Below are positions 899 to 17,875 of a DNA stretch of 64,000 bases, in pieces. Numbering within the stretch: position 1 is the first letter of the stretch; each line of letters begins with the position of its first letter. The notes under the pieces are model-generated. The model worked only from the letters and a program-made list of their open reading frames with translations. It was not told the DNA's origin and did not search any database. Both the position numbers and the translations under genes were made by a program. The DNA is from Streptomyces sp. NBC_01264 (lineage in GTDB: Bacteria > Actinomycetota > Actinomycetes > Streptomycetales > Streptomycetaceae): contig NZ_JAPEOX010000001.1 in NCBI RefSeq assembly GCF_026340675.1, positions 4,216,001 through 4,280,000 of the forward strand, given 5' to 3'.

Positions 899-2332
899 TC
901 AGCTGGGGGCCTCGGCGCCCTTGCGGGCGTAGAACCAGTAGCAGACCACCAGGCACGTGGCGTAGAAGCCGATGAAGATCCACAGTGCGTTGGTGACGGC
1001 CATGGCCGCGAACATCGCGGGGATGAAGAAGAAGCCGTAGGCCGCGATGGCCGAGGAGAAGCCGGTGACGGCGCCCGACTCCATCTCCGACTGCTTGAGC
1101 GCCGCGGCCTGTGCCTCGGGGCCCTTGCCCTCGGCCTCCTTCATGTGGTGGTCCCGGAAGATCACCGGGATCTGCCGGAAGGTCGAGCCGTTGCCCAGGC
1201 CGGAGAAGGCGAAAGCCACCAGGAAGCCGATGTAGAAGGGCCAGAAGTCGCCCTCCTTGCCACCGGACGGCAGCGCGAAGATCACCACGACGAGGGCCGC
1301 GGCCATGCCGATGAAGGACAGGATCGTGACCCTGGCTCCGCCGATCTTGTCCGAGAGCCAGCCGCCGCCCCAGCGCGTGAGGGCCCCGATGAACGGACCG
1401 ATCCAGGCGTAGGTGGTGGCCTGGTAGCCCTGCCCCTCGAAATTGTTCTTGATCAGCAGCGGCAGGGCGGCCGCGAAGCCGATGAAGGACCCGAAGGTGC
1501 CGACGTACAGCCAGGTCATCAGCCAGTTGTGCTTGCGCTTGAAGATGATCTTCTGCTGGCTGAAGGGGGCCGCGGCCACCTGGAGGTCGTTCATCAGGAA
1601 CCAGGCGGCCAGCGCCATGATGACCAGCAGCGGCACCCAGAGGAAGGCGCCGTTCTGCAGCCAGATGTCGGTGTTCTTCTTCCCGTCGTACTGGGGTCCG
1701 CCCGCCGGGGCGCCCAAGACGGCCGCGGTGACCACCAGCGGGGCGACCAGCTGGACCACGCTCACGCCGAGGTTGCCGAGGCCGCCGTTGAGGCCGTTGG
1801 CGCTGCCCTTCTCCCGCTTGGGGAAGAAGAAGCCGATGTTCGCCATCGAGGAGGCGAAGTTCGCGCCGCCGATGCCGCAGACGGCCGCGATCAGCGCCAG
1901 CTCCCAGTACGGGGTCCCGGTGTCCTGGAGCGCGAAGCCCAGCCACAGCATCGGCCCGACCAGGATGATCGTGCTGAAGGCGGTGAACTTCCGCTCGCCG
2001 AACATCGGCCCGATGAAGGTGTAGAGGATCCGGAAGGTACCGCCGGTGATACCGGGGATGGCGGTCAGCCAGAACAGCTGCGACTTCGAGAAGCCGAAGC
2101 CGACGTCGTTCAGCCTGACCACGGTCACCGACCAGACCTGCCAGACCACGAAGCCGAGCATCAGGGCCGGGATCGAGACCCAGAGATTGCGCTGGGCGAC
2201 CCGGTGTCCGGTGGACTGCCAGAAGCCCTCGTCCTCGGGCCGCCAGTCGGCGATGGTGGCCCCGGGCTTGTAGCTCTCCGCGCGGTGGCTGTGGGATGCC
2301 GACGAAGTCGGCGTGGGCATCGACATGGTCAT
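899..2332 (-). CDS. narK: NarK-type nitrate/nitrite MFS transporter (copy 1)
   Basis: This is a 12-helix major facilitator that moves nitrate and/or nitrite across the cytoplasmic membrane. The nitrate-porter signatures are visible: the GIGGANFASSMANIGFFFP segment in the middle of the N-terminal half, the GGLGNLGVS segment after it, and GNGSTFRQIP in the C-terminal half. The 477-residue length is normal for the family. The start at 2332 is chosen because its ATG overlaps the upstream stop as ATGA, implying translational coupling; a GTG further upstream would lie inside the previous gene. It is the last clear gene of the molybdo-oxidoreductase operon. A close paralogue lies at 12496-13917; the two share long identical stretches, including the KGAEAPS C-terminus. 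Confidence 0.92.
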   Translation of the reverse strand: MTMSMPTPTSSASHSHRAESYKPGATIADWRPEDEGFWQSTGHRVAQRNLWVSIPALMLGFVVWQVWSVTVVRLNDVGFGFSKSQLFWLTAIPGITGGTFRILYTFIGPMFGERKFTAFSTIILVGPMLWLGFALQDTGTPYWELALIAAVCGIGGANFASSMANIGFFFPKREKGSANGLNGGLGNLGVSVVQLVAPLVVTAAVLGAPAGGPQYDGKKNTDIWLQNGAFLWVPLLVIMALAAWFLMNDLQVAAAPFSQQKIIFKRKHNWLMTWLYVGTFGSFIGFAAALPLLIKNNFEGQGYQATTYAWIGPFIGALTRWGGGWLSDKIGGARVTILSFIGMAAALVVVIFALPSGGKEGDFWPFYIGFLVAFAFSGLGNGSTFRQIPVIFRDHHMKEAEGKGPEAQAAALKQSEMESGAVTGFSSAIAAYGFFFIPAMFAAMAVTNALWIFIGFYATCLVVCYWFYARKGAEAPS

Positions 2333-2697
2333 CGGTCCTTCGGGTCGAGGAGCCACAGTCCGATCACTACGAGGAAGGACAGGATCAGGAACCCCGCTCC
2401 CCACCAGGCCGTGCCGGTGTTTCCCTTCATCCACTCGTTGACGGTCACGGTGAGCGCCCAGAGCTGGCCGATCACGACCGTCAGGGCCAGGACGAGGCGC
2501 GCGTTGAGGCGGGACGAGCGCTCGGGCTCCTGCTCGGTGCCGGCGCCGGGGCCCGGGCCCGTGTGCCGGATCCGGGGGTCCCCGTACCCGCTGGTGGAGC
2601 GGATCTGCGGGTACCGTTCGCGCACCGGCCGGTTGAGCCGTGGCTGGGCACTTCCCGGGTGGTACTCCGGGCGGGGTGGCAGCGGGGCCTCGCTCAT
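2329..2697 (-). CDS. Small two-helix membrane protein of the nar operon (likely DUF6755)
   Basis: The 122-residue protein has a hydrophilic Pro/Arg-rich N-terminal half and two predicted membrane helices in the C-terminal half (LVLALTVVIGQLWALTV and WWGAGFLILSFLVVIGLWLL) that end close to the C-terminus. No catalytic motif is visible. The ATG at 2697 overlaps the Rieske stop (ATGA) and has a strong GGAGG; its own stop overlaps the narK start the same way. This sandwich position suggests a small subunit or assembly partner of the membrane oxidoreductase. The DUF6755 assignment is from memory of Streptomyces proteins found beside Rieske genes and was not searched. Confidence 0.8.
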   Translation of the reverse strand: MSEAPLPPRPEYHPGSAQPRLNRPVRERYPQIRSTSGYGDPRIRHTGPGPGAGTEQEPERSSRLNARLVLALTVVIGQLWALTVTVNEWMKGNTGTAWWGAGFLILSFLVVIGLWLLDPKDR

Positions 2698-3377
2698 GTG
2701 GGCCTCCTCTCGGTGGTACCGGCCCGGGCCGCGCCGGGGCAGCCCAGGCGGGCGGACTCCTCCGGGTGGGAGTCGCCGAACTGCCGGCAGAGCGCGTCCT
2801 TGACCTGCTCTCCCGACCGGGCGGTCGCCACGGCCCAGACGCTGCCGTCGGCCTGCTCGGTCAGGTAGATCCGCGGCAGCGGGCGCGGCGGCGGACCGGC
2901 CGTCACCTCGCCGGTGCGGGCGTCGAAGACACCCTCGTGGCAGGGGCAGTACAGCTCCCCGTCGGGGCCCCGGTCCTCGCGCCACAGCACCCCGCAGGCC
3001 AGGTGCGTGCAGACGGCGGAGTAGCCCACGAGGGAGCCGTCCCCGAGGCGCACGGCCAGAGCCCGGTCGTCCTCGCCCGGGAACCGGAAGGCCACGGACT
3101 GGCCGGGAGGCAGCAGGTCGGCGACCTTCTTCGGATCGGGCAGGCCCTCGTTGTCGCCGTGCCGGTGCAGGATGCCGGCGGCGACGCCGACACCGCCGAT
3201 GGCCAGGCCGCCGGAGACGGTGGCGACGATCCGCAGGTAGTCACGGCGGGTGGTGAGGGAGTCGGCGCTGATCCGGTCGCGCAGCTGCGCGATCGCGGCA
3301 TCGGCGGCCGCTCCGCCGTCCGCGTGGCCGTCACCCTGGTTGCCTGGGTGCGGAGGGGGCTGCTCGGTGACGCTCAT
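2694..3377 (-). CDS. Tat-exported Rieske [2Fe-2S] protein
   Basis: This 227-residue electron carrier has a C-terminal Rieske fold. Cluster ligands are visible as C123-x-H125 and C144-x2-H147, with C128 and C146 placed to form the usual stabilising disulfide. A twin-arginine motif (TTRRDYLRI, about residues 42-50) precedes a hydrophobic segment (about 51-70), so the protein is probably exported by Tat and held by an uncleaved anchor. It could pass electrons between quinol and the molybdo-enzyme complex of this operon or to another acceptor. Both ends overlap neighbours by 4 bp. The C-terminal extension after the Rieske fold contains two more cysteines of unknown role. Rieske proteins are not a standard part of NarGHI or NasA systems, which makes this operon unusual. 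Confidence 0.9.
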   Translation of the reverse strand: MSVTEQPPPHPGNQGDGHADGGAAADAAIAQLRDRISADSLTTRRDYLRIVATVSGGLAIGGVGVAAGILHRHGDNEGLPDPKKVADLLPPGQSVAFRFPGEDDRALAVRLGDGSLVGYSAVCTHLACGVLWREDRGPDGELYCPCHEGVFDARTGEVTAGPPPRPLPRIYLTEQADGSVWAVATARSGEQVKDALCRQFGDSHPEESARLGCPGAARAGTTERRPT

Positions 3378-3973
3378 CGGACATCCCTTCCGTTGATCTC
3401 GACGACGGGCAGGCCGCCGGGGACGGGCCACTGGACCTTGTCGGCGGGGACGACCATGGCCACGCCGGTCTGGACGACGACGTCGCCGAAGACGAAGGAG
3501 TCGGCCACCTGGACCCCGGGGCGCTCCGCCTGGAGCTCTTCGAGGGTTCCGTAGAAGAGGGCTCCGGTCGGGCAGACGGTCGCGCACATCGGGGCGAGCC
3601 CGTAGGCGGTGCGGTCGTAGCAGAGGTTGCACTTCATCTGCAGCTTCGCCTGGAGGTCGATCTTCGGGATGCCGAAGGGGCAGGCGTTGACGCAGTTGGA
3701 GCAGCCGATGCAGCGGGTGGTGTCGGCCTGCTGGACCACCCCGTCGGCGGTCACCAGGATCGCGTCGGCGGGACAGACCTCGGCGCAGGGCGCGACCGGG
3801 TCCTCGCAGTGCATGCAGACGCTCGGGAGGGAGGCGACGGACATGCCGGGTTCGGTGTAGTCCAGGTGGATCATCGACTTCCCGCGGTGCGAATCGCACT
3901 CGCGGCAAGCCGAGACGCACGCCTGGCAGCCGATGCACCGACCCGGGTCGATGAAGATCGTGCGGCCCATCAT
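3374..3973 (-). CDS. Four-cluster [4Fe-4S] ferredoxin subunit (NrfC/HybA-like)
   Basis: This electron-transfer subunit should link a molybdopterin catalytic subunit to a membrane quinol-binding subunit. Four cysteine groups typical of the DmsB/NrfC/PsrB family are visible in 199 residues: RCIGCQACVSAC near the start, CMHC...CAEVCP, RCIGCSNCVNACPFG, and CNLC...CATVCPTG. There is no signal peptide, so it acts on the cytoplasmic side unless co-exported. Two adjacent ATGs start the gene; the first (3973) has GAGGAG about 10 bases upstream. It begins 6 bases after the molybdo-enzyme stop and overlaps the Rieske start by ATGA. The C-terminal 40 residues after the last cluster form a short domain. 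Confidence 0.92.
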   Translation of the reverse strand: MMGRTIFIDPGRCIGCQACVSACRECDSHRGKSMIHLDYTEPGMSVASLPSVCMHCEDPVAPCAEVCPADAILVTADGVVQQADTTRCIGCSNCVNACPFGIPKIDLQAKLQMKCNLCYDRTAYGLAPMCATVCPTGALFYGTLEELQAERPGVQVADSFVFGDVVVQTGVAMVVPADKVQWPVPGGLPVVEINGRDVR

Positions 3974-3979
3974 GGCGGG

Positions 3980-6310
3980 TCAGCTCCTCTCCGCCGTGCC
4001 ACGGCCCTGGGGGGACGTGGGCGGCAGGGGGTCGGTGCGGGAGACCTGGGTCTCCGGATAGGCCTCACGACCCGGTGGGGTGGGCGGGGCGGGCACCTCG
4101 TCGACCCGCTCGGCGGCCTCGATCCGGGCGGCGCAGACCTTGTACTCGGGGATCTTCGAGCGGGGGTCGAGTGCGTCGATGGTCAGGGCGTTCGCGGACG
4201 TCGGGACGGGCCAGTGGTACGGGATGAAGACGGTGTCGGGGCGGATCGCCTCGGTGACCAGGGCCGGGAACACCTCGCTGCCGCGCCGGGTGACCACCCG
4301 TACCGGGTCGCCGTTGCGGAAGCCGTGCGAGGGGTGGACCTCCACCCAGGGGCGGGGGGTCTGCTCGACGAGGGCGCCGAGCCGTCGGGTCTGGTTGCCG
4401 GAGAGGAAATGCGCGACGGTGCGGCCGGTGGTGAGGGAGAGGGGGTACTCCTCGGTGTAGGCGTCCATGGGCGGATGCCATTCCACGACCTGCATGTGGA
4501 TCTTGCCGTCGGGGTGGTAGGTCCGGCCGTCCTCGAACAGCCGGGGAGTGCCCGGGTGCTCGGTGGAGGGGCAGGGCCAGGCGATCCCGCCGGTCTCGTC
4601 GAGGCGGTCGTAGGTGATGCCGTAGTAGTCGTTGACCGTGCCGGCGGAGGCCACGCGCAGCTCCTCGAACACCTCGCGGGAGCCGGGGAAATCGAAGTGC
4701 TTCCCGGCACCGAGCCGCCTGGCGAGCTCGCAGATGACCCAGGTGTCGGTGCGCACCCCGGCGGGGGGCTCCTGGGCCTTGTTGTGCTTGACCACGCGGG
4801 CCTCGGCGTTGGCCATCACGCCCTCGTCCTCGGCCCAGGTGGTGACGGGGAAGACCACGTGGGCGTTGGCCGCGGTCTCGGAGAGGAAGAAGTCGAACTG
4901 GGCGTGGAACTCGGCGGTGTCGTAGCCGTCCTTGACCACCGCGTAGTTGGGGAGGGAGACGAAGGGGTTGTTGCAGATGCCGATGAGGCCGCGGATCTCC
5001 CCCCGTTGCATCTGCCAGACCATCTCCATCATGGAGGTGCCGGCGCCGGGGAGTTCGGACTCCTCGATGCCCCAGATCTGGCAGATCTGCTTGCGGTGCT
5101 CCGGGTTGGTGATGGAGCGGCCGCCGGGAAGGAGATCGGACTTCTGGCCGTGCTCGCGGCCGCCCTGGCCGTTGCCCTGCCCGGTGATGGTGCCGTAGCC
5201 CGCTCCGGGCTTGCCGATGTGGCCGGTGGCCACGCACAGGTTGATCACGGAGAGGCAGTTCTCGACGCCCTGGGAGTGGTGCTCGATGCCCCGGGCGTGC
5301 CAGGCCATGGCCTTGTCCGCGCCGGCGAAGACCCGTGCCACCTGGACGATCTGCGAGGCGGGCACCCCGCAGATCTCCGCGGACCGGGAGGGCGGGTACG
5401 CGGCGACGGTCTTCTTGACCTCTTCCCAGCCCGTGGTGTTCGCGGCGATGTAGGCCTCGTCGGTGAGGCCTTCGGCGATGACCACGTTCAGCACGGCGTT
5501 GAAGAAGGCCGAGTCGGTGCCGGGTTTGATCGCGACGTGGATGTCTGCGGTGCGGGCGATGGCCGTCTCGCGCGGGTCGATCACGATCAGCGAGGCGCCG
5601 CGGTCCCGGGCGCCCCACAGGTACTGGGTCATCACGGGGAAGCACTCCCCCACGTTCGACCCGGCGATGAGCAGGCAGTCGGTGAGGAGGATGTCGGAGA
5701 AGGGGTTGCCGGCCCGGTCGATGCCGAAGGCGAGCTTGTTGGCTCCGGCGGCGCTGACCATGCACAGGCGGCCGTTGTAGTCGACGTGCTTGGACTTCAG
5801 CGCGACCCGGGCGAACTTGCCGACCAGGTAGGTCTTCTCGGAGAACAGGCTGGCTCCGCCGAGCAGGCCGAAGGCGTCGTTGCCGTGGGCCTCCTGGATG
5901 CGCCGGATCTCGGAGACGGTGAAGTCCAGGGCCTCGTCCCAGGAGCACTCCTTGAACTCCTCGTCCCGGGAGCGCCGCATCAGCGGGGCGGTCAGCCGGT
6001 CGGGGTGGTTGACCTGCTGGTAGGCGTTGATGCCCTTGGGGCACAGCCGCATCCGGTTGATGTCGTGGTTGCGGGGCTCCACGCCGAAGACCTTGCCGCC
6101 CTTGTCCACGCGCAGGTACATCCCGCACTGCACCCCGCAGAAGCAGCAGTGGGTGGGGACCAGGGTTTCGCCGTTCTGGTCGGCGTGCCACTGGTCGGCG
6201 GGGATGCCGCCGGCGTCGCGGAAGTTGCGGGTGCCGGGCGGGGCGATGGAGGGGTCGATGGAGACGGGTACGGGCCGGGACGCGGCCTTGGCGGGGTCGG
6301 TCGCGGTCAC
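3980..6310 (-). CDS. Molybdopterin oxidoreductase, NasA/nitrate-reductase-like catalytic subunit
   Basis: This 776-residue bis-MGD enzyme of the DMSO-reductase superfamily carries an N-terminal [4Fe-4S] motif (C55-x2-C58-x3-C62, then C90 in LCPKG). A probable molybdenum-ligating cysteine, C183, sits in NGRLCMVSAAG, which resembles the NSRLCMSSA of assimilatory/periplasmic nitrate reductases rather than Sec/Cys formate dehydrogenases. The C-terminal molydopterin-binding domain includes TTGRTVAHFLSGNQTRR. No Tat signal precedes it, so it is probably cytoplasmic. The GTG at 6310 overlaps the upstream stop (GTGA). Neighbouring narK favours nitrate as substrate; the nearby pfl genes make formate an alternative. 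The partners (membrane, ferredoxin and Rieske subunits) are those of a quinone-linked enzyme, unlike classical NADH- or ferredoxin-dependent NasA. Confidence 0.88.
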   Translation of the reverse strand: MTATDPAKAASRPVPVSIDPSIAPPGTRNFRDAGGIPADQWHADQNGETLVPTHCCFCGVQCGMYLRVDKGGKVFGVEPRNHDINRMRLCPKGINAYQQVNHPDRLTAPLMRRSRDEEFKECSWDEALDFTVSEIRRIQEAHGNDAFGLLGGASLFSEKTYLVGKFARVALKSKHVDYNGRLCMVSAAGANKLAFGIDRAGNPFSDILLTDCLLIAGSNVGECFPVMTQYLWGARDRGASLIVIDPRETAIARTADIHVAIKPGTDSAFFNAVLNVVIAEGLTDEAYIAANTTGWEEVKKTVAAYPPSRSAEICGVPASQIVQVARVFAGADKAMAWHARGIEHHSQGVENCLSVINLCVATGHIGKPGAGYGTITGQGNGQGGREHGQKSDLLPGGRSITNPEHRKQICQIWGIEESELPGAGTSMMEMVWQMQRGEIRGLIGICNNPFVSLPNYAVVKDGYDTAEFHAQFDFFLSETAANAHVVFPVTTWAEDEGVMANAEARVVKHNKAQEPPAGVRTDTWVICELARRLGAGKHFDFPGSREVFEELRVASAGTVNDYYGITYDRLDETGGIAWPCPSTEHPGTPRLFEDGRTYHPDGKIHMQVVEWHPPMDAYTEEYPLSLTTGRTVAHFLSGNQTRRLGALVEQTPRPWVEVHPSHGFRNGDPVRVVTRRGSEVFPALVTEAIRPDTVFIPYHWPVPTSANALTIDALDPRSKIPEYKVCAARIEAAERVDEVPAPPTPPGREAYPETQVSRTDPLPPTSPQGRGTAERS

Positions 6311-7401
6311 TTGAAGCCCTTCTTGACGTGGGTCAGGTAGGCGTTGCCGCGCAGGACCCGCTTGCAGCGCGGGCAGTACTCGGCCCAGGCGTCGAAGTCG
6401 AGCTTCAGGTCCTTCATCGTTCCGCGCAGGTTCTCCACGTAGGGCGCGGTGTCGATGGGCTCCGCGCAGCGCTTGCAGAGGAAGACCTGCTCGTCCTGGC
6501 GGGCCGTGTACTTGAAGAGCTGCATGCCGACGGCGGCCGGGCGCTGGACGATGTGGAAGAACTTCCCGAACGGGATGTAGATGAGGGTGAACACCACCGA
6601 CACCATGTGCAGGATCGCGAGGAACTCGTATCCCCCGCCGTGCAGGAAGATCGAGGAGAAGGTCAGCAGCAGACCGGTCACGGAGATGACGATCAGGCAG
6701 ATCAGCGGCAGCAGGTCGTAGGCGAAGCGCTGGCCCGTCATGGCGCCGCGGTCCTTCATCCGCCGGTACAGGAAGTACGAGGCACCGGGGATGACGAGGA
6801 CGGCGGCGATGTCCAGGCCGTGGAACATCAGCCAGCCCAGCACGCTGAGCGCGTCGAAGCCGAGGACCTTGATGCCCCAGATCCGCATGTCGTAGCCGGG
6901 GCCCGCGCCGCTCTCCGAGGTGAAGGTGAACCAGCCCCAGGTCAGCGGGAAGGTGATGGCCGCGGCGAGCAGGCAGCCCCAGAACATCAGCTGGTGGGCG
7001 ATCCAGCGGGGGCGCGAGCGGGCGCCGAGGAACTTCTGGAAGCCGAGGTACGTGGCGATCATCTTCGGCAGGGCGGTGGGCGCCTTGCGGAAGTTGTCCA
7101 TCGACCAGAAGCTGCTGATGCCCTTTTTGAAGAGGCGCCGCGCGCCGGGGGCCGAGACCCACACGGTGTACCGGTAGGCCACGCCGAAGGCCAGGAAGAC
7201 GGTGGCGACGGCGTACGGCAGCAGGGCCGAGTCGAAGTCACGCAGCAGCCGGCTGCCGAGCACGATCGCGAGGATGAGCAGGAGCGAGACGACGGTGCCG
7301 GCCAGGGTGGCCCGTGCGGTGACGGACCGCCCGGCCGGCGGCGGGGTCTCGGGCGCCGGTGGGGGCGGCGCGGCGTCGATGACATCTGAGGGCTCGGACA
7401 C
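6307..7401 (-). CDS. NarI/HdrE-like membrane quinol-oxidising subunit with C-terminal zinc-ribbon
   Basis: The 364-residue protein has about six membrane helices between residues 33 and 290. Helix-embedded histidines (in AHQLMFW, MFHGLD, ILHMVS and KFFHIV) look like ligands for two b hemes, as in nitrate reductase gamma and heterodisulfide reductase E subunits. It should take electrons from menaquinol and pass them to the ferredoxin and molybdo subunits encoded next. A cytoplasmic tail carries CKRC and CPRC pairs that could bind zinc or a cluster, an addition not found in NarI. The GTG at 7401 is the first gene of the operon; its ribosome site is weak. It overlaps the molybdo-enzyme start (GTGA). 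Pairing with a NasA-type enzyme is inferred from gene order. Confidence 0.82.
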   Translation of the reverse strand: MSEPSDVIDAAPPPPAPETPPPAGRSVTARATLAGTVVSLLLILAIVLGSRLLRDFDSALLPYAVATVFLAFGVAYRYTVWVSAPGARRLFKKGISSFWSMDNFRKAPTALPKMIATYLGFQKFLGARSRPRWIAHQLMFWGCLLAAAITFPLTWGWFTFTSESGAGPGYDMRIWGIKVLGFDALSVLGWLMFHGLDIAAVLVIPGASYFLYRRMKDRGAMTGQRFAYDLLPLICLIVISVTGLLLTFSSIFLHGGGYEFLAILHMVSVVFTLIYIPFGKFFHIVQRPAAVGMQLFKYTARQDEQVFLCKRCAEPIDTAPYVENLRGTMKDLKLDFDAWAEYCPRCKRVLRGNAYLTHVKKGFK

Positions 7402-7505
7402 AGCACCACGCTAGGTGGTATGTACCGATTCGGCCCGTTATATGGAACTTACGGGTGCGCCGTTCGGGTGAGGGCTCGGGAGGGGAACCGAGGGGAACCC
7501 GAGGC

Positions 7506-8348
7506 TCAGACCGCGTTCAGTCCCTGCGCGGCGAAGATCTCCTTCGCCTCGGCGACCTGTGCGGCGGTCGGCGACGGGGTGTCGTGGAGGGTGAACTTCA
7601 TGTCCAGCGCCTCCCACTTGCTCTCGCCGAGCTTGTGGAAGGGCAGTACGTCGACCCGCGAGATGTTGTCGAGGCCGCCGGCGAAGGCGGCCACGCCCTC
7701 GATGTTGTCCCGGGCGTCGGTCAGTCCCGGCACCAGCACGAACCGCAGGTGCACCTCCTTGCCGAGGTCGGCGAGGCGGCGGGCGAAGTCCAGGGTCGGC
7801 TCCAGCGGGCGGCCGGTCACCTGCTTGTACGTCTCCCGGTCCCAGGACTTGATGTCCAGCAGGACCAGGTCCACGTCGCGCAGCAGCGCGTCGGTGGCGC
7901 GGGCCCCGAGGAAGCCGGAGGTGTCCAGGGCGGTGTGCAGCCCGAGGTCGTTCTTCATCCGGTGCAGCAGTTCGCCCGCGAAGACCGGCTGGAGCAGCGG
8001 TTCGCCGCCGGAGATGGTGGCGCCGCCCCCGGAGGCGGAGATGAACTTGGTGTACTTGCGGGCCTCGGCGATGACGTCGTCGGCCGAGGTGCGCTTGCCA
8101 TTGCGCATCCGCATGGTGTCGGGGTTGTGGCAGTACAGGCAGGTCAGCGGGCAGCCGGACAGGAAGGTCACGAACCGGGTCCCGGGGCCGTCGACCCCGG
8201 TGGACAGGTCCCAGGAGTGCACCGTGCCCTCGCTCGGCCGCTGCGTCGCGGCGGCGGCGGGCGTCTGGCCGGCGCTGAGCTGGCCGAGGCCCACGCTGAT
8301 CGCGTTGGCGTGGCCGACGGGAAGGCTCGTACCGAAGAGGACGGTCAT
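7506..8348 (-). CDS. pflA: Pyruvate formate-lyase activating enzyme
   Basis: This radical-SAM enzyme installs the glycyl radical on PflB using S-adenosylmethionine and a reduced [4Fe-4S] cluster. The cluster motif is CPLTCLYCHNP (Cx3Cx2C), followed by the ISGGEPLLQP glycine-rich SAM segment. The 280 residues are slightly longer than E. coli PflA because of an N-terminal extension of about 40 residues before the conserved GTVHSWDLSTGVDGPG start. GGAG is placed 8 bases before the ATG at 8348. It lies 109 bases downstream of pflB on the same strand, the standard pflBA order. The cluster is oxygen-sensitive, so it should be useful only under micro- or anaerobic conditions. Confidence 0.95.
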   Translation of the reverse strand: MTVLFGTSLPVGHANAISVGLGQLSAGQTPAAAATQRPSEGTVHSWDLSTGVDGPGTRFVTFLSGCPLTCLYCHNPDTMRMRNGKRTSADDVIAEARKYTKFISASGGGATISGGEPLLQPVFAGELLHRMKNDLGLHTALDTSGFLGARATDALLRDVDLVLLDIKSWDRETYKQVTGRPLEPTLDFARRLADLGKEVHLRFVLVPGLTDARDNIEGVAAFAGGLDNISRVDVLPFHKLGESKWEALDMKFTLHDTPSPTAAQVAEAKEIFAAQGLNAV

Positions 8349-10728: not shown

Positions 10729-10812
10729 CGCCCGCACCTTCCGATCGCCTCATTGCTTGCATCCATTGCACGCCTTTTGATCGATCATTTGGCGCCGCGT
10801 TGGTCCTGAGCT

Positions 10813-10829
10813 GGGGCCCGAAGGTCCCC
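10813..10829 (-). promoter_or_regulatory. DevR/OsdR-like box in pflB promoter (candidate)
   Basis: Read on the minus strand this is GGGGACCTTCGGGCCCC, an imperfect palindrome close to the GGGAC...GGCCC half-sites bound by DosR/DevR-type hypoxia regulators. It is centred about 93 bases upstream of the pflB start. A related GACCC/GGGG element lies just beside it (about 10838-10854). This is a pattern match only. Confidence 0.35.
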
Positions 10830-10901
10830 TGATCCCCAGCCCCAAGGGTCTCCCATCCCGGCTGACCTGGCACTTTGAGCAGGTCAAAGGTCCATCGTGC
10901 A

Positions 10902-10921
10902 CTTGTGAAAACTTTCACAAG
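10902..10921. promoter_or_regulatory. Rex-type (NADH/NAD redox) operator upstream of pflB
   Basis: The sequence fits TTGTGAA-N4-TTCACAA with no mismatch, the operator described for the Rex repressor of Streptomyces coelicolor. The arms extend to 9 bp each. It lies between the end of the dicarboxylate carrier gene and pflB, about 180 bases upstream of the pflB start. Rex controls pfl genes in several Gram-positive bacteria. The same bases also fit the CRP consensus TGTGA-N6-TCACA, so CRP is an alternative binder. Confidence 0.7.
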
Positions 10922-10955: not shown

Positions 10956-12269
10956 TCAGATGATCTGAACCAGAGCGAAGCCTGTGGATACCGCGACGCA
11001 CGTGGTGATCAGGCCGGGCAGCATGAAGGAGTGGTTGACGACGAAGCGGCCGACCCGGGTGGTGCCGGTCCTGTCGAAGTTGATCGCCGCGATGAAGGTG
11101 CCGTAGGTGGGGAGGAGGAAGTAGCCGTTCACGGCGGGCCACATCGCGATGAGGAGGGGGGCCGGGATACCGAGGGCGAGCCCGAGGGGCATCAGCGCCT
11201 TGGTGGTCGTGGCCTGGCTGAACAGCAGCGCGGAGAGGAGCAGCAGCATGATCGCGAAGAACCAGGGGTGGTCCTGCGCGACCCCGCCGAGCGCACCGGT
11301 GATCCGGGCCTCGTTGGCGCCGATGAAGGACAGCCCCAGCCAGGACAGTCCGAAGACGCCGATGACGGCGACGAGCCCGGACTTGGCCACGTCCGTGCCG
11401 GGTATGCGCTTGGCGTCGACCTTGCACAGCAGCAGGATCAGGGCGGCCACGGCCATCATGAGGATCTCGATGGTGGCGGGCATCGAGAGCGGGCCCTTGG
11501 CCGTCTCGGGGCGCAGCGCCGGGAAGAGACCGCTGAGGACGACCGCCACGGTCCCGCCGAGGAAGAGGTACGCGGACCAGCGCGCCCGCGGCCGCAGCGG
11601 CGGGGCGGCCTCGGCCGGGGCGGGGGCCTCGATCTCGCCGGCGGCCAGCCGGCGCAGGTACTCGGTGTCCTGCCCGAGCTCCTTGCCGATCCGGGACTGC
11701 ACGGTGGCCGCCACGACCACGCCCAGCAGGGTCGACGGCACGGCGACGGCCATGATCCGGGGCAGGTTCCAGCCGTCCCCGTCGAACATCACGATCATGG
11801 CCGCCATGGCGGCGGAGACGGGTGAGGCAGTGATACCGAAGGTGGCCGCGATGGAGGAGACGGCGATGGGCCGCTCCGGGCGGACGCCTCCCTCGCGGGC
11901 CACGTCGTGGATCACGGGGAGCAGGGGGTAGAAGACGTGCGCCGTGCCGGCGCCCAGGGTGAAGGCCCAGGACACCAGGGGAGCCACGTAGACGACACGG
12001 CTGGGTTTGCGGCGGATCGCCTTCTCTGCGAGCCCGACCAGGTAGTCGATGCCGCCCGCGGCCTCCATCGCGGCGGCCGCCATGATCACCGCGAGGATGA
12101 TCAGCATCACGTCCACGATGCCCGAGGTGTCGGCGGGGGTGACCCCGAAGAACGTCGCGAGCACGAACACCCCGACGGCGCCCCAGAGCCCCATGGCCAC
12201 CCCGCCCTTGCGGGACCCGAGAGCGATGGCCGCCACCATGACGGCGAGTTGCAGGAACATGCCGAGCAC
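10956..12269 (-). CDS. Anaerobic C4-dicarboxylate transporter (DcuA/DcuB family)
   Basis: This integral membrane carrier of 437 residues has about ten or more helices and probably exchanges fumarate, succinate, malate or aspartate. The sequence shows the Dcu family pattern: an N-terminal MLGMFLQLAVMVAAIALGSRKGG segment, the GAGTAHVFYPLLPVI and ASPVSAAMAAM motifs, and a C-terminal half with SQATTTKALMPLG. The GTG at 12269 is preferred because AAAGG is 8 bases upstream; an internal ATG lies at 12260. Dcu carriers serve fumarate respiration or aspartate uptake in facultative anaerobes. Its place between pflB and narK on the same strand supports a role in low-oxygen metabolism. Substrate is not determinable from sequence alone. 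Confidence 0.88.
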   Translation of the reverse strand: MLGMFLQLAVMVAAIALGSRKGGVAMGLWGAVGVFVLATFFGVTPADTSGIVDVMLIILAVIMAAAAMEAAGGIDYLVGLAEKAIRRKPSRVVYVAPLVSWAFTLGAGTAHVFYPLLPVIHDVAREGGVRPERPIAVSSIAATFGITASPVSAAMAAMIVMFDGDGWNLPRIMAVAVPSTLLGVVVAATVQSRIGKELGQDTEYLRRLAAGEIEAPAPAEAAPPLRPRARWSAYLFLGGTVAVVLSGLFPALRPETAKGPLSMPATIEILMMAVAALILLLCKVDAKRIPGTDVAKSGLVAVIGVFGLSWLGLSFIGANEARITGALGGVAQDHPWFFAIMLLLLSALLFSQATTTKALMPLGLALGIPAPLLIAMWPAVNGYFLLPTYGTFIAAINFDRTGTTRVGRFVVNHSFMLPGLITTCVAVSTGFALVQII

Positions 12270-12360
12270 GGGCGCGGCCTTTCAGTGTCGGTGCGGAGGC
12301 GCGGGGATCCGGGGGCCGGCCTGCGGCAACGGCGTGGCGGTCGACCGCGGGCCTGGCCGA

Positions 12361-12424: not shown

Positions 12425-12495
12425 AAGCCCGGGCGCGGTCGGGTTGCCGCTCGCGCAGCGACCCCGCACCCGGGCTGACCAGCCAGGGCTCCCGG

Positions 12496-13917
12496 TTAGC
12501 TGGGCGCCTCCGCGCCCTTGCGGGCGTAGAACCACCAGGCCACGATGACGCAGCTGGCGTAGAAGGCGACGAAGCCCCACATCGCGCTGGTCACGGCGAA
12601 GTTGGCGAACATCGCCGGGATGAAGAAGAAGCCGTAGGCGGCGATGGCCGCGGTGAAACCGGTCACCGCGCCCGACTCGATCTCGGCCTGCTTCAGCCCC
12701 TTCGCGTACTCGGGGGTGCCCTCGGTCAGGCCCGCGAGGTGCTGGCCGCGGAAGATGACCGGGATCTGGCGGAAGGTCGAGCCGTTGCCGATGCCGGAGA
12801 AGAAGAACGCCGACAGGAAGCAGAAGAAGAAGCCGTAGAAGGAGCCCTGGTCGGAGCCCGCCGGAAGGAAGGTGATCACGCCGATGATGGAGGCGCCCAT
12901 GCCCACGAAGGACAGGATCGTCACCCGCGCGCCGCCGAACTTGTCGGCGATCCAGCCGCCGGCCCAGCGGGCCAGCGCGCCGAGCGCCGGGCCCATCCAG
13001 GCGTAGGTGGCCACGGAGTACGCCGGGAAGGTCGTCTTGATCAGCAGCGGGAGGGCCGCCGCGAAGCCGATGAAGGAGCCGAAGGTGCCGACGTAGAGCC
13101 AGGTCATCAGCCAGTTGTGCTTGCGCTTGAAGATGATCTTCTGCTGGCTGAAGGGGGTGGAGGCGACCTTCAGGTCGTTCTGGCCGAACCAGGCGATGGC
13201 AGCGAGGACGATCAGGACCGGCACCCAGACGAAGGCGGCGTTCTGGAGGTAGATCTCCGAGCCGTCGGCCTTCTTCTGGCCCGAGCCGATCGCCAGCACC
13301 GAGGTGGTGATCAGGATCGGGGTGAGCAGCTGGACCACGGAGACGCCCAGGTTGCCCAGGCCTCCGTTGATGCCGGTCGCGTTGCCCTTCTCCTGCTTCG
13401 GGTAGAAGAAGCCGATGTTGGCCAGGGAGGAGGAGAAGTTGGCGCCGCCGATGCCGCAGAGCGCGGCGATGGCGACCAGCGTGGTGTACGAGGTGGTGGG
13501 GTCCTGCACCGCGAAGCCCAGCCACAGCAGCGGCACGATCAGGATGACCGTGGAGACCGCGGTGAAGCGGCGCTGGCCGATCATCGGGCCGATGAAGGTG
13601 TACAGGATGCGGGCGGTGCCGCCCGTGATGCCGGGAACCGCCGTCAGCCAGAACAGCTGCGACTGCGAGAAGCCGAAGCCGACGTCCTTGAGGTTGGTCG
13701 CCGTGATGCTCCAGACCTGCCAGACCACGAAGGCCACCAGCAGGGCGGGCACCGCGATCCACAGGTTGCGGGTGGCGACCTTCTTGCCGGTGGTCTGCCA
13801 GAAGGACGGGTCCTCCGGCGTCCACTCGGTGATGGTGCGACCGGGGCGGTACTGCGCCGGATCGGGCGCCTGCACCCGGGCGGTGGCCGCGCGCGCGTCC
13901 TGCTTGGCGGAACTCAT
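12496..13917 (-). CDS. narK: NarK-type nitrate/nitrite MFS transporter (copy 2)
   Basis: This second 12-helix NarK paralogue (473 residues) is very similar to the product of 899-2332. It carries the same GIGGANFSSSLANIGFFYP and GGLGNLGVSVVQLL nitrate signatures and the same SFRQ/GNGSTFRQIPVIF loop. The ATG at 13917 has only a short AGGA ribosome site. It sits just downstream of nirBD on the same strand, separated by a probable terminator hairpin, so it can be read on its own. The gene pairing (copy 1 with the molybdo-enzyme, copy 2 with nitrite reductase) suggests division of labour, for example nitrate uptake versus nitrite handling. Which substrate each prefers cannot be read from the sequence. 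Confidence 0.92.
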   Translation of the reverse strand: MSSAKQDARAATARVQAPDPAQYRPGRTITEWTPEDPSFWQTTGKKVATRNLWIAVPALLVAFVVWQVWSITATNLKDVGFGFSQSQLFWLTAVPGITGGTARILYTFIGPMIGQRRFTAVSTVILIVPLLWLGFAVQDPTTSYTTLVAIAALCGIGGANFSSSLANIGFFYPKQEKGNATGINGGLGNLGVSVVQLLTPILITTSVLAIGSGQKKADGSEIYLQNAAFVWVPVLIVLAAIAWFGQNDLKVASTPFSQQKIIFKRKHNWLMTWLYVGTFGSFIGFAAALPLLIKTTFPAYSVATYAWMGPALGALARWAGGWIADKFGGARVTILSFVGMGASIIGVITFLPAGSDQGSFYGFFFCFLSAFFFSGIGNGSTFRQIPVIFRGQHLAGLTEGTPEYAKGLKQAEIESGAVTGFTAAIAAYGFFFIPAMFANFAVTSAMWGFVAFYASCVIVAWWFYARKGAEAPS

Positions 13918-13924
13918 GGGATGT

Positions 13925-13954
13925 CCTGAAAGTTCGAAGGGGCCTGAATGTTCG
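13925..13954. repeat. Direct repeat in narK copy 2 leader
   Basis: CCTGAAAGTTCG (13925-13936) and CCTGAATGTTCG (13943-13954) are 12-bp direct repeats with one mismatch and an 18-bp period, just upstream of the narK start at 13917. They could be a regulator site or a leader element. Confidence 0.4.
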
Positions 13955-14037
13955 GAGGGTTGTGAAAATGAAGCTGAAAGCCCTGACCTTCTTAGGGTCC
14001 GCCTACAGGGGCGCCCCACATCAGGGGAGAACGTCGC

Positions 14038-14068
14038 GTGGGCGACAGGACAAGGTCCCATCGCCCAC
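14038..14068 (-). terminator. Hairpin after nirBD (terminator, or regulator site)
   Basis: GTGGGCGA pairs with TCGCCCAC, and an inner GGAC pairs with GTCC across an AAG loop. It starts 29 bases past the nirBD stop. The inner part, read on the minus strand as GGGACCTTGTCC, also resembles a DevR-type box about 130 bases upstream of narK copy 2, so it may do either or both jobs. Confidence 0.6.
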
Positions 14069-14096
14069 AGTGCGTTCGTACGTCGCCCGCGGAGTC

Positions 14097-16883
14097 CTAG
14101 GCCTTGAGCTCCACCAGCGGCAGGGACACCTCGGGGTCGTCCAGGCAGATGCCGGTCCGCAGGTCGAAGACCTGCTTGTGCATCGGCGAGGCCACGACGG
14201 GCACCCCGTCGCGCGAGCCCATGATGCCGTTTGCGATCACGTCGGCGCCCGAGAATGGGTCCCGGTTGGAGACCGCGTAGACCTCGCCCGCACGGTCCTT
14301 GAAGACCGCCGCCTCGGTACCGTCCGGCAGCACCGCGGTCCGGCCGCGGCCCGGCTCCAGCGACTGCGCCGCGCCTTCGGCGCCCTCGGCCGTCCCGAAG
14401 TCCACGGTCCCGAAGCGCTCCAGCGCCGCCGGGTCCTCCAGGACCGCGGACCACTCGTCCTCGTACGCCGACACGTGGCGCTCCATCTGCGCCTCCAGCT
14501 CCGCGCAGATGCCGAGCGAGTCCTCGATCAGGACGGCCTTCAGGTGGTCCAGGCCCGCGCCGCTGCCACCGAGCCGCTCCAGCCAGGCCGACGTCCGTTC
14601 CAGGCGCTCGCCGGTGCGGATGTAGTACATGAGGAACCGGTCGAGCAGCGCGAAGAGTTCGGCGGTGTTCAGGTCCGAGGCCAGCAGGTCGGCGTGGCGC
14701 GGGGTCGCGCCGCCGTTGCCGCTGACGTACAGGTTCCAGCCGTTGGCGGTGGCGATGACGCCGATGTCCTTGCCCCGCGCCTCCGCGCACTCGCGCAGGC
14801 AGCCCGAGACGCCGCCCTTGAACTTGTGCGGGGTGCGCAGACCCCGGTAGCGCAGCTCCAGGTCGATGGCGAGCTGGATGGAGTCGCCCTGGCCGAAGCG
14901 GCAGAAGCGGGCTCCCACGCAGGACTTCACCGCGCGCAGGGACTTCCCGTACGCCTGCCCGGACTCGAACCCGGCGCCGCCCAGGCGCCGCCAGATATCG
15001 GGCAGCTGCTCCTTCCTGACCCCGAAGAGGCCGATGCGCTGGGCTCCGGTGATCTTCGTGTAGAGGCCGTAGTCCCGGGCCACCTCGCCCAGCGCGATGA
15101 CCTGCGCGGCCGTGATCTCGCCGCCGGCGACCCTCGGGATCACCGAGTAGGTGCCGTCCTTCTGGAGGTTGGCGAGGAAGAGATCGTTGGAGTCCTGCAG
15201 GGCCGCCTGCTCGCCCGCGAGGATGTGTCCGATGCCGAGGTCGGGGGCAAGGGTGCCGAGCACGTTCGCGACCACCGGCTTGCAGACGGCGCAGCCCTCG
15301 CCACCCTCGCCGTAGGACTCCAGCAGCTCGCTGAAGCTTCGGATGCGCTCGGTGCGGATCTTCTCGTAGATCTCCGCCCGGGTCAGGGTGAAGTGCTCGC
15401 ACAGCCCGCGCGGCTTCTCGATCCCCGCCGCGGCCAGTTCGGCGTCCAGGACCGCCTGCAGCGTGCCGATGCAGCCGCCGCAGCCCGTGCCGGCCTTGGT
15501 GCACTTCTTGATGCCGCCGATGTCGGTGAGGGACTCCGCGACGACCGCCTCGCGCACCCGCCCCTTGGTGACGTTGTGGCAGCTGCACACGACCGCGTCA
15601 TCGGGCAGCGCGTCCGCGCCGGGCAGCGCCACGCCGTCGGTCGACGGCAGGATGAAGGCCTCCGGCGGGGCCGGGAGCTGCCGGCCGGCGTGCGGCTTCA
15701 GCGAGCCGTACGCCTCCGCGTCGCCGACCAGGATGCCGCCGAGCAGCGCGCCGTCGGGGCCCAGCAGCAGCTTCTTGTAGACGCCCTCGCGGGCGTCGGA
15801 GAAGACCACGGAGACGGCCCCGTCGCGGCCCTCGGGGGCGAAGGGGTCGCCGAAGGAGGCCACGTCGGCGCCCATCAGCTTGAGCTTGGTGGATGTGTCG
15901 GCCCCGGTGAAGGTCAGCTTGCCGGCGCCCGCGAGGGCCTCCGCGACGGTCTCGGCCATCTGGTAGCCCGGCGCGACCAGCCCGTACACCTTGCCGTCGA
16001 CGGTCTGCGCGCACTCGCCGATCGCGTAGACGTACGGGTCGCTGGTGCGGCAGTGGCCGTCCACGACGACCCCGCCGCGGTCGCCCACGGCCAGGCCGCA
16101 CTCGCGGGCGAGGCGGTCGCGCGGCCGCACACCGGCCGAGAAGACGACGACGTCGGAGCCGATCTCCTCGCCGCTGGTCAGCCGGAGCGCCTGGGCCCGC
16201 CCGTCGGGGTGGATCTGCACGCCGGCCGCGCCGACGCCCGTGTGCACGGCGACGCCCATGGATTCGATGGTGGCCCGGAGCGCGGCCGCGCCGCCGTCGT
16301 CCACCTGCAGCGGCATCAGCCGGGGCGCGAACTCCACGACGTGCGTGGCCAGTCCGAGGGTGCGCAGGGCGCCCGCCGCCTCCAGGCCGAGGAGCCCGCC
16401 GCCGATGACGACACCGGTACGGACCCCGGGGTCCGCGGCGTACGCGGTGAGGGCCTCGACGTCGTCGAGCGTGCGGTACGTGAAGCAGCCCTCGGCGTCG
16501 GCGCCGTCGATCGGCGGTACGAAGGGGTAGGAGCCGGTCGCCAGCACGAGCGCGTCGTAGGGGAGCACGTCTCCGGAGCGGGCCGTGACCTTGCGGGCGG
16601 CGGTGTCGATCAGCTCCGCCGGGTCGCCGAGGCGCAGGTCGATGCCGTACTTCTCCAGGAAGCCGGGCTCGACCAGGGACAGCTCCTCGCCGGTGGAGCC
16701 GGTGAAGGCCGCCGACAGGTGGACGCGGTCATAGGCCGGGCGCTCCTCCTCCGCGAGGACGGTGACCTGCCAGCCGCCGCGTTCGGGGCGGGTCGGGTCG
16801 GCGAGCGCGTCACGCTCGGCGAGCACCTCCAGCAGGCGGTGACCCACCATGCCGTGGCCGATGACAACCAGCGTCTGCCCCAT
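14097..16883 (-). CDS. nirB: Fused NAD(P)H nitrite reductase NirB-NirD
   Basis: The enzyme reduces nitrite to ammonium in the cytoplasm using NAD(P)H, FAD, iron-sulfur clusters and siroheme. Domain order in 928 residues: FAD/NAD pyridine-nucleotide oxidoreductase (VVIGHGMVGHRL start, about 1-320), BFD-like [2Fe-2S] region (CSCHNV...GTGCGGC), nitrite/sulfite reductase domains with siroheme/cluster cysteines (CVGARFC and GVSGCLREC), and a C-terminal NirD-like Rieske fold (EVYAVSNRDPFSGA...SPMHKQVFDLRTG) that lacks the Cys/His ligands, as is normal for NirD. E. coli has NirB (847 aa) and NirD as separate proteins; here they are fused. The ATG at 16883 has GGAG 8 bases upstream. A divergent sirohydrochlorin chelatase gene could supply the siroheme. 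Confidence 0.95.
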   Translation of the reverse strand: MGQTLVVIGHGMVGHRLLEVLAERDALADPTRPERGGWQVTVLAEEERPAYDRVHLSAAFTGSTGEELSLVEPGFLEKYGIDLRLGDPAELIDTAARKVTARSGDVLPYDALVLATGSYPFVPPIDGADAEGCFTYRTLDDVEALTAYAADPGVRTGVVIGGGLLGLEAAGALRTLGLATHVVEFAPRLMPLQVDDGGAAALRATIESMGVAVHTGVGAAGVQIHPDGRAQALRLTSGEEIGSDVVVFSAGVRPRDRLARECGLAVGDRGGVVVDGHCRTSDPYVYAIGECAQTVDGKVYGLVAPGYQMAETVAEALAGAGKLTFTGADTSTKLKLMGADVASFGDPFAPEGRDGAVSVVFSDAREGVYKKLLLGPDGALLGGILVGDAEAYGSLKPHAGRQLPAPPEAFILPSTDGVALPGADALPDDAVVCSCHNVTKGRVREAVVAESLTDIGGIKKCTKAGTGCGGCIGTLQAVLDAELAAAGIEKPRGLCEHFTLTRAEIYEKIRTERIRSFSELLESYGEGGEGCAVCKPVVANVLGTLAPDLGIGHILAGEQAALQDSNDLFLANLQKDGTYSVIPRVAGGEITAAQVIALGEVARDYGLYTKITGAQRIGLFGVRKEQLPDIWRRLGGAGFESGQAYGKSLRAVKSCVGARFCRFGQGDSIQLAIDLELRYRGLRTPHKFKGGVSGCLRECAEARGKDIGVIATANGWNLYVSGNGGATPRHADLLASDLNTAELFALLDRFLMYYIRTGERLERTSAWLERLGGSGAGLDHLKAVLIEDSLGICAELEAQMERHVSAYEDEWSAVLEDPAALERFGTVDFGTAEGAEGAAQSLEPGRGRTAVLPDGTEAAVFKDRAGEVYAVSNRDPFSGADVIANGIMGSRDGVPVVASPMHKQVFDLRTGICLDDPEVSLPLVELKA

Positions 16884-17048
16884 GGATCTCACTCCGTGTC
16901 CCTTGCCGCGCGGTCCCGGGGCGGCCAGGGCGGCCGGGCGAGGACATCACGCGTGCATGCGTTCCGACTCTTCGACGGTAGGTCGGCGGCGCGGCCCCGA
17001 ACGCCCGAAAAGGACCCCTGGGGACGGGGAAACGACCCTTTCCACACA

Positions 17049-17083
17049 GGACCTCCGGCCCGCCCCGTGGGCCCTTGGCCAGG
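17049..17083. promoter_or_regulatory. DevR/OsdR-like half-palindromes between nirBD and the chelatase gene
   Basis: The 269-bp divergent region holds GGACCTCCGGCCC (17049-17061) and GGGCCCTTGGCC (from 17069). Both resemble the GGGACC-N3-GGCCC pattern of DosR/DevR-type sites and the element upstream of pflB. No clear -10/-35 pair was found. Candidate only. Confidence 0.35.
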
Positions 17084-17152
17084 CTGCCCCGGGCCCGCAC
17101 CGGGCCTAGCGTGGGAGGGGGACCCACGGGGTGGATCAGGGAGGCAGACCAC

Positions 17153-17875
17153 ATGCTCGTCATCGCCGTCCACGGCAGCGCGGCCCCGGAGGCGTCCGCG
17201 ACCATCGACCGGCTCGTCGCCGCGGTCGAGGCCATCAGCGGGGTGCACGCCCTGGTCGGCCACCTCGACGTGCAGCGCCCCTCCCTCGCCGAGGTCGTAC
17301 GGGAACACCCGCGCTCCGTGGTCGTCCCCCTGCTGCTCGGCGACGGTTTCCACCGCCGCGTGGACATCCCCGCCGTCCTTGAGGGCACCGGCTGCGTGCT
17401 CACCGAGGGCCTCAGCGGCGAGCGCGACGTCACCCGCGCCCTGCACAGCCGGCTCCGCGAGGCCGAGCGGCGCCGCGGCCCGTACACCCGGGCCGACGCG
17501 GTGGTCGTGGCCGGGGCCGGTTCCTCGCGCCCGGGCGGCAACGCCGGTACGGAAGCCTGCGCGGCCCAGCTGTCCGCCCTGCTGGAGTACGACGACGGCG
17601 CCGCGCCCGTCCCCGCGGTCCCCGCCTACCTGACCTCCGCCGGGCCGACCGTCCCCGAAGCCCTGGCCGCCTTCCAGGCCGCCGGGTACCGCCGGATCGC
17701 GGTGACCGCGCACCTGCTGGCCCCGGGCCGCTTCATGCGCGCCCTGAACGCCTCGGCCGCCTGGACGGTCTCGGAGCCGCTGGCCGACCACCCGCGCCTG
17801 GCCCGGCTGGTCCTGGCCCGCTACGAGTCCGCTCGGGGCACACGGGCCCTGAGGGCCGCGCGCCTCGCCTGCTGA
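17153..17875 (+). CDS. Sirohydrochlorin chelatase (CbiX/SirB family)
   Basis: This enzyme inserts iron (or cobalt) into sirohydrochlorin, the last step to siroheme. The 240-residue product has two related halves, each opening with a chelatase-like strand: AVHGS at the N-terminus and TAHLLAPGRF in the C-terminal half, where the histidines are the expected metal/catalytic residues. VVPLLLGDGFH marks the family core. GGGAGG precedes the ATG at 17153. It is divergent from nirBD, whose product needs siroheme, which favours iron insertion and a shared regulatory region. Cobalt chelation for vitamin B12 cannot be excluded. Confidence 0.88.
   Translation: MLVIAVHGSAAPEASATIDRLVAAVEAISGVHALVGHLDVQRPSLAEVVREHPRSVVVPLLLGDGFHRRVDIPAVLEGTGCVLTEGLSGERDVTRALHSRLREAERRRGPYTRADAVVVAGAGSSRPGGNAGTEACAAQLSALLEYDDGAAPVPAVPAYLTSAGPTVPEALAAFQAAGYRRIAVTAHLLAPGRFMRALNASAAWTVSEPLADHPRLARLVLARYESARGTRALRAARLAC

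Follow-up and report, generated by a model that had tools for sequence, protein, structure and literature searches.

The window analyzed here is a 64,000-nucleotide stretch of the genome of Streptomyces sp. NBC_01264 (10.67 Mb in 10 contigs; contig C1, positions 4216001-4280000), one end of which carries genes for a pyruvate formate-lyase (PFL; pflB) and its activating enzyme (pflA), for a multisubunit molybdo-enzyme, and for nitrite reduction. Genes were called by combining frame statistics with NCBIfam and Pfam profile searches of the window (Table 1). On the minus strand the order of transcription is NirBD, NarK2, the C4-dicarboxylate carrier Dcu, PflB, PflA, a membrane subunit, the molybdo-subunit, a 4Fe-4S protein, a Rieske protein, a DUF6755-like protein, and NarK1; mscL flanks the block on one side, and a plus-strand LtrA gene lies beyond the CbiX-type chelatase on the other. 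From the membrane subunit through NarK1, neighboring genes overlap or lie a few bases apart (the NarK1 start was picked from the overlap with the preceding gene), and the gaps between pflA and the membrane subunit, pflB and pflA, and Dcu and pflB are 104, 109, and 218 bases, respectively. The Dcu profile scores (457 to 498 bits) exceed three family cut-offs; NirBD is a single frame of 928 to 931 amino acids with NirB, NIR_SIR, and Rieske_2 domains; and the chelatase suggests a supply of siroheme. A preliminary description of this DNA had listed PFL, PflA, Dcu, the molybdo-enzyme, two NarK transporters, NirBD, and the chelatase, and family and domain scores bear out each of them at its place. 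Likewise, the catalytic motifs are intact (IACCVSAM and RVSGYAVNF in PFL, CPLTCLYC in PflA, and the Cys of the molybdo-subunit), and the gene set suits oxygen limitation, with pyruvate cleavage and nitrate and nitrite reduction, as had been proposed. To that list our analysis adds the membrane, 4Fe-4S, Rieske, and DUF6755-like proteins, and a Rex operator at 10903-10920.

Table 1. Genes and candidate regulatory elements at the locus (positions within the window)
Feature	Position	Strand	Evidence or remark
mscL	54..608	+	PF01741; locus-marking neighbor
NarK1, nitrate/nitrite transporter of the major facilitator superfamily (MFS); final gene of nitrate reductase operon	899..2332	-	TIGR00886, 320.6 bits vs cut-off 311.7
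DUF6755-like small protein, two hydrophobic regions	2329..2697	-	PF20540 weak: E 6e-5, 23.6 bits vs cut-off 27
Rieske [2Fe-2S] protein	2694..3377	-	PF00355, 35.4 bits, above cut-off; one hydrophobic stretch
4Fe-4S dicluster electron-transfer subunit, 17 Cys	3374..3973	-	PF13247 and others
NasC-type molybdo catalytic subunit, probable nitrate reductase	3980..6310	-	NF047855, 772 bits vs cut-off 1100
Membrane subunit, read as b-type cytochrome, C-terminal four-Cys ribbon	6307..7401	-	Invariant His/Cys; hydrophobic stretches
Promoter-like element, nitrate reductase operon	7402..7445 (up to 7460 in comparison with relatives)	-	AACGGG + TAGCGT ahead of GTG start
pflA, PFL-activating radical S-adenosylmethionine enzyme	7506..8348	-	TIGR02493, 287 bits vs cut-off 232; CPLTCLYC
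pflB, pyruvate formate-lyase	8458..10737 (start GTG 10737 or ATG 10728)	-	TIGR01255, 1193 bits vs cut-off 994
Second OsdR/DevR-like box GGGGACCTTCGGGCCCC	10813..10829	-	7/8 fixed positions
First OsdR/DevR-like box, 25 bases past Rex operator	10881..10894	-	6/8 fixed positions in window
Rex operator, perfect 18-mer TTGTGAAAGTTTTCACAA (minus strand)	10903..10920	palindrome	Pattern search
DcuA/B-type C4-dicarboxylate carrier	10956..12260	-	PF03605; PRK09412 above cut-off
NarK2	12496..13917	-	PRK15034, 416.5 bits; TIGR00886, 310.1 bits, just below cut-off 311.7
NirBD fusion, NADH-siroheme nitrite reductase	14097..16883	-	TIGR02374, 957 bits; Pfam domains
CbiX-type chelatase	17075..17875	+	PF01903, 74.8 bits; NCBIfam chelatase models below cut-off

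The palindrome TTGTGAAAGTTTTCACAA lies in the Dcu-pflB intergenic region and agrees with the Rex operator pattern TTGTGAANNNNTTCACAA without mismatch. The window alone provides modest evidence for Rex, because two Rex-type matches (up to 2 mismatches) were reached by chance in 4 of 100 window shuffles; the genome-wide evidence is stronger. More specifically, the whole genome holds six Rex sites with at most one mismatch, three of them perfect, and none for the reversed pattern. Their neighbors are pflB, adhE, rex-hemA, cydA, a putative NDH-2 gene (a pyridine nucleotide-disulfide oxidoreductase in the family search, below cut-off), and one place without a clear target. Here rex sits behind its own operator, and the rex and cydA 18-mers are identical to the sites footprinted in S. 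avermitilis (PMC5355995). The adhE operator is identical to the pflB 18-mer at a distance of 1.7 Mb, and the gene behind it encodes a bifunctional acetaldehyde-CoA/alcohol dehydrogenase over its full length (1369 bits versus a cut-off of 951). The third perfect operator of the genome, TTGTGAATGCATTCACAA at C2:1280801-1280818 (L287), is the one without a clear target; its 18-mer recurs in two other genomes (G074 C1:1131044 and G257 C18:32269).

We then extended the search to 295 Streptomyces genomes, in which 62 perfect operators were found in 45 genomes and the reversed pattern scored zero in each. Forty of the 62 lie 96 to 240 bp ahead of the start of a match to pflB (20) or adhE (20, one of them broken). 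In a survey of 80 PFL promoters besides that of the window (L164, a duplicate of L095, was dropped from the counts), where a core locus is one with mscL or the molybdo-gene in the stretch, the operator was present with at most one mismatch in 21 of the 34 promoters at the core locus, and 17 of 32 carried it in another set of 80 named loci that overlaps the first in part. S. xanthophaeus NRRL B-5414 (L208) and S. violascens JCM 4424 (L222) are examples of strains that combine pflBA, the operator, and the molybdo-operon. It accompanies both types of core-locus PflB (89-99% and 72-77% identity) and, once, a PflB of 83% identity. AdhE scored above its cut-off in 73 of the 295 genomes, 71 of which also have a PFL above cut-off (Fisher 1e-39, uncorrected for kinship), and in the remaining two PFL is present in pieces; the pflB and adhE frames are open across many species. 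One group of core-locus stretches (L073-L085, PflB 90-93% identical) carries no Rex operator before pflB, and five of its genomes (G015, G076, G162, G185, and G238) have kept the operator before adhE.

The box that follows the operator has the palindromic pattern GGGNC(N)4GNCCC, like published OsdR sites, of which the narG2 site reads AGGGACCTTCGGCCCC (PMC5069765). We compared 42 promoters, i.e., 22 of pfl (window included) and 20 of adhE, oriented by tblastn; the adhE promoters are those with a Rex site among 30 loci read (10 lacked one) out of 77 adhE places above cut-off. The box starts 25 bases from the operator in 34 of the 42 promoters and keeps at least 7 of its 8 fixed bases in 31. Whereas this pattern was chosen post hoc from the sequences, a model built from six published OsdR sites only is independent of that choice, and under it 37 of the 42 boxes score above the 95th percentile of their own shuffles (mean 6.4 versus -3.9). 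The half-sites covary (GGTCCAAAGTCCC, GGTCTTTGGTCCC, GGACCTTCGGCCC), which argues for a function of the box, and the best further match falls at +91 or +92 in 15 of 22 pfl promoters (a count without a separate shuffle control). In four adhE promoters (L302, L306, L310, and L311) GGGACTTCC-type arms enclose or flank the Rex operator, with the result that OsdR-like boxes touch it. The genome itself encodes four regulators 70-77% identical to a DevR-like regulator from a PFL cluster. A DevR pattern with a five-base spacer gave 8 matches in the window versus 10.4 by chance; its spacing was wrong, and the four-base form was used later.

PflB belongs to the PFL family by its score above the TIGR01255 cut-off, by the adjoining PflA, likewise above cut-off, and by the motifs IACCVSAM and RVSGYAVNF, which we take to be the paired active-site Cys and the C-terminal glycyl-radical Gly. 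The preliminary description had called PFL rare in Streptomyces; since 104 of the 295 genomes have a PFL above the family cut-off (113 have a match), it is not rare in the genus. Synteny was read on 57 PFL stretches in addition to 63 fetched molybdo-loci, and PFL places that were not fetched lie outside the counts. Ten stretches carry PFL near mscL without the molybdo-subunit (L128, L129, L130, L131, L133, L136, L138, L155, L161, and L170). Five stretches outside the core locus were read gene by gene: in four (L141, L142, L146, and L154) PFL lies near universal-stress-, alcohol-dehydrogenase-, GapA-, or DevR-like genes (named by eye), and the fifth (L124) is without such neighbors. These neighbors fit the co-expression of S. 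lividans PFL (SCO0206) with OsdR (PMC6302529). Core-locus PflB (L086, L095, L129-L138, and others) comes in the two identity classes given above at the same place, with PflA mostly about 80% identical, as if pflB had been swapped by recombination. In G254, equal-scoring pairs of PFL and AdhE lie near both chromosome ends (C1:196835-204860 and C1:11335972-11343998), perhaps inside terminal repeats.

The catalytic subunit of the molybdo-enzyme matches NasC best (NF047855, 772 bits), compared with 570 bits for the alpha subunit of formate dehydrogenase (FDH; TIGR01591, cut-off 666). It is absent from the five matches to NarG (TIGR01580) in this genome, which has a separate NarG above cut-off at C1:6315740. 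A Met after the ligand Cys is usual in Nas and Nap enzymes, and this Cys-Met motif is found in 87 of 88 relatives of the subunit, whereas in five FDH chains compared the ligand Cys or Sec is followed by His. The Rieske protein, whose N-terminus looks Tat-like (twin-arginine translocation; judged by eye), is similarly conserved among relatives (CTHLAC in 62/64, CPCHEG in 62/63, RRDYLR in 62/64). We read the membrane subunit as a probable b-type cytochrome because it combines several hydrophobic stretches with three invariant His (H136, H265, and H283) and four invariant C-terminal Cys (C309, C312, C343, and C346). It immediately precedes the molybdo-gene in all 24 loci of a phylum search, was found in 23 of 396 genomes of the phylum sample (the 20 non-Streptomyces ones all outside its class), and has named matches, among the best 80 of 475, in S. 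griseus, S. globisporus, Streptacidiphilus, and Kitasatospora. The gene order cyb-nas-fes-rieske-DUF6755-NarK recurs on two Deinococcus plasmids, with 36-57% identity where measured. Most of the 120 listed entries for the membrane subunit, and the Deinococcus records too, annotate it as "MFS transporter", a label that conceals the operon. For DUF6755, no paper was found in the open-licence literature searched. The clade of NasC, AioA, NapA, and FDH is said to lack canonical 4Fe-4S and membrane-anchor subunits (PMC7331816), so the presence of such partners would make this set unusual.

Of 56 promoters located upstream of this operon, 49 have AACRGG with a TA-type hexamer ahead of the GTG (shuffles, mean 0.015), a pattern written post hoc from the sequences; it occurs in 22 of 24 PFL-bearing and 27 of 32 PFL-free loci, and its closeness to the GTG suggests a leaderless transcript. 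A second candidate, the half-site RGGNCCRA, was rejected (present at the tested place in 15 of 56, against a shuffle mean of 0.4). Sites fitting the OsdR model were found before the operon in 0 of 35 cases, so the pflBA and nitrate reductase modules are not shown to be co-regulated. Because the operon has a promoter-like element of its own and no OsdR-model site, we hold the complex to be a probable quinol-linked nitrate reductase under control separate from that of pfl.

We propose, with a probability of roughly 0.7, that the window holds a modular oxygen-limitation locus in which a Rex/OsdR-type pflB-adhE regulon is combined with a separate quinol-linked nitrate reductase and a nitrite module. 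Rex leaves DNA as NADH rises; PFL forms acetyl-CoA and formate without NADH; AdhE reoxidizes two NADH per acetyl-CoA; and AckA yields ATP. The genome encodes Rex, and its AckA, FDH (Fdh-alpha), and NarG each score above cut-off. The composite pflBA promoter would consist of a Rex operator, released as the NADH/NAD+ ratio rises, followed 25 bases later by an OsdR/DevR-type box answering to a two-component system for hypoxia and nitric oxide; the remote adhE with the same promoter plan makes pflB and adhE one candidate regulon. PFL would cleave pyruvate to acetyl-CoA and formate, and the acetyl-CoA would be converted either to ethanol by AdhE, with two NADH reoxidized, or to acetate and ATP via acetate kinase. 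The six-gene operon cyb-nas-fes-rieske-duf6755-narK, transcribed from its own promoter, would provide a membrane-anchored, quinol-linked nitrate reductase of NasC type, and narK2-nirBD would reduce nitrite to ammonium with NADH. We infer from these arrangements an NADH- and hypoxia-gated regulon for formate and ethanol fermentation in supposed obligate aerobes. Binding by Rex and OsdR, induction, the fermentation products, quinol oxidation, and the cytochrome nature of the membrane subunit are all predicted from sequence, and the benefit to the cell would presumably be redox balance for survival, perhaps for growth. A broader proposal is speculative and less likely than not: about a quarter of Streptomyces species may be cryptic facultative fermenters, with Rex/OsdR-gated pflB and adhE and with formate, ethanol, and acetate as products for redox balance without oxygen, and part of the genus may also have a quinol-linked nitrate reductase of a class not yet named, which would combine NasC, Rieske, and cytochrome b subunits and be common to Streptomyces and Deinococcus.

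Several observations weigh against this proposal. Twenty-two of the 62 perfect operators precede neither pflB nor adhE, their targets having been read in the window's own genome only; 13 of the 34 core-locus pfl promoters, 10 of the 30 adhE loci read, and all 46 PFL promoters away from the core locus are without a Rex site; and the first box of the window's own pfl promoter keeps just 6 of 8 fixed positions. The counts and the Fisher value overstate the evidence, because orthologous promoters are not independent. On the side of the nitrate reductase, the NasC score stays below its cut-off of 1100 bits, no Pfam family matches the membrane subunit, and the OsdR-model site is missing before the operon. 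Finally, the Rex targets named for S. avermitilis, in the part of that report available, are aerobic or developmental (respiration, heme, ATP synthase, and developmental genes) and include neither pflB nor adhE (PMC5355995), and streptomycetes reportedly fail to grow under anaerobic conditions (PMC5069765).

The preliminary description had treated the block as one island. A single island for anaerobic respiration that moves laterally, its whole 17 kb acquired and controlled together, might be argued from the shared strand of its genes, from the restriction of membrane-subunit relatives in the phylum sample to Streptomyces and to genomes outside its class, and, weakly, from a GC content of 68-71% over 1-14 kb versus 69-78% over the remainder of the window. 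We consider it scarcely credible and largely refuted. Close relatives of the molybdo-subunit occur in 64 of the 295 genomes, this one included, with at least 85% identity (one partial) apart from one at 70%; other NasC-like enzymes follow, after a gap, only from 47% identity down. Among the 63 molybdo-loci fetched from other genomes, mscL is present in 50, PFL, Dcu, NarK, and NirBD are present or absent independently of one another, and the complete set including Dcu was observed in four (L061, L062, L064, and L069) as well as in the window. The molybdo-complex and PFL barely co-occur: a PFL above cut-off is encoded by 29 of the 64 genomes that have the complex and by 75 of the 231 that lack it (odds ratio 1.7, p 0.075, uncorrected for kinship). 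The locus lies centrally in large contigs (e.g., at 5.06 of 8.7 Mb and 3.47 of 7.9 Mb), and the elements upstream of pflBA differ from those of the nitrate reductase operon. Plasmid records with the membrane subunit number four, all from Deinococcus, and the 25 plasmid matches to PflB that were listed, of 102, include no Streptomyces. The pattern is one of modular turnover at a mostly fixed, mscL-anchored site, with modules gained and lost separately, and not of a moving island.

Other functions can be envisaged for the two enzyme systems. An FDH passing electrons from PFL-derived formate to the quinone pool would suit the adjacency of the molybdo-operon to pflBA, the best solved relatives of the catalytic subunit, which are FDHs, and the 570 bits of the Fdh-alpha model; yet that score is below the cut-off and below that of NasC, the active site is Cys-Met and not Cys/Sec-His, the operon continues with NarK in some Streptomyces and in both Deinococcus operons read, the complex occurs without a PFL above cut-off in 35 of 64 genomes, and an FDH-alpha above cut-off is encoded elsewhere in the genome. 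This function is very improbable, and the formate disposal that the preliminary description had proposed is unlikely to run through the local molybdo-enzyme, given the Cys-Met site and the separate FDH. An ordinary assimilatory nitrate reductase, for which the NasC family and the nearby NirBD speak, is hard to reconcile with membrane, Rieske, and 4Fe-4S subunits in the same operon and with further NasC/Fdh-like enzymes in the same genome, and we consider it improbable as well, if less so. A role of the enzymes in dormancy and survival only, under the OsdR program and with Rex for fine-tuning but without anaerobic growth, has not quite an even chance of being correct. The OsdR literature and its "anaerobic paradox" (PMC5069765) favor it, as does S. 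lividans, where PFL falls in the OsdR group and is accompanied by a pseudogene fragment of the activase (PMC6302529). On the other hand, facultative anaerobes such as S. aureus are organized in this way, with pflB and adhE each behind a Rex operator (PMC2883068), and both genes are open in many of the species surveyed here.

Further motif searches were run in the window. FNR-type sites gave 6 matches, each with two mismatches, versus 2.3 expected, a number reached in 0 of 100 shuffles; four (positions 1443, 5577, 7849, and 12097) fall within genes of the block (NarK1, the molybdo-gene, PflA, and Dcu), and the others are at 31449 and 56714. Since all are imperfect and the upstream regions of the block contain none, they were set aside and the excess is left unexplained. 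Crp-type sites (8 matches versus 9.3 expected, of which the Rex site and that at 60898 are the sole perfect ones) were likewise rejected, the search for sigma-70-type promoters returned none, and terminators numbered 5 versus 4.8 expected. Elsewhere in the window are an apparent polysaccharide cluster at 34007-40397 (a MurJ-like flippase, an O-antigen-ligase-like protein, and a glycosyltransferase) and a sigma-70-type factor at 54875-55852.

Streptomycetes retain anaerobic genes although they are unable to grow without oxygen, a puzzle known as the "anaerobic paradox" (PMC5069765). A shared switch that ties the expression of pflB and adhE to NADH, and probably also to hypoxia, would make it directly testable, and in the nitrate reductase operon there would be an uncharacterized electron-transfer complex that is now annotated piecemeal. 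PFL, AdhE, Rex, and OsdR are individually known; in the open-licence literature searched, we found no report that links Rex to pflB or adhE in Streptomyces, or that places Rex and OsdR at one promoter.

Among known systems, that of S. avermitilis shares its rex and cydA operators with this genome (PMC5355995). The catalytic subunit resembles NasC/NasA and NapA in its best family and its Cys ligand, and it differs from the described clade in that 4Fe-4S, membrane, Rieske, and DUF6755 proteins share its operon (PMC7331816). In the Streptomyces OsdR/DevR regulon PFL is tied to hypoxia and dormancy, and the form of the box is the same as here (PMC5069765, PMC6302529); there, PFL stands in a dormancy cluster, whereas the gene described here occupies another locus and has a Rex operator. 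In the S. aureus Rex regulon (pflBA, adhE, narG, and nirR; PMC2883068) the operator consensus is the same, binding is strongest at sites that do not deviate from it, and the targets include pflB and adhE, which bear operators here too. A second, menadione-dependent control, possibly via SrrAB, acts there on the same genes, comparable to the one proposed here; the present case differs in its high-GC streptomycete host and in its OsdR/DevR-type box at a fixed distance from the operator.

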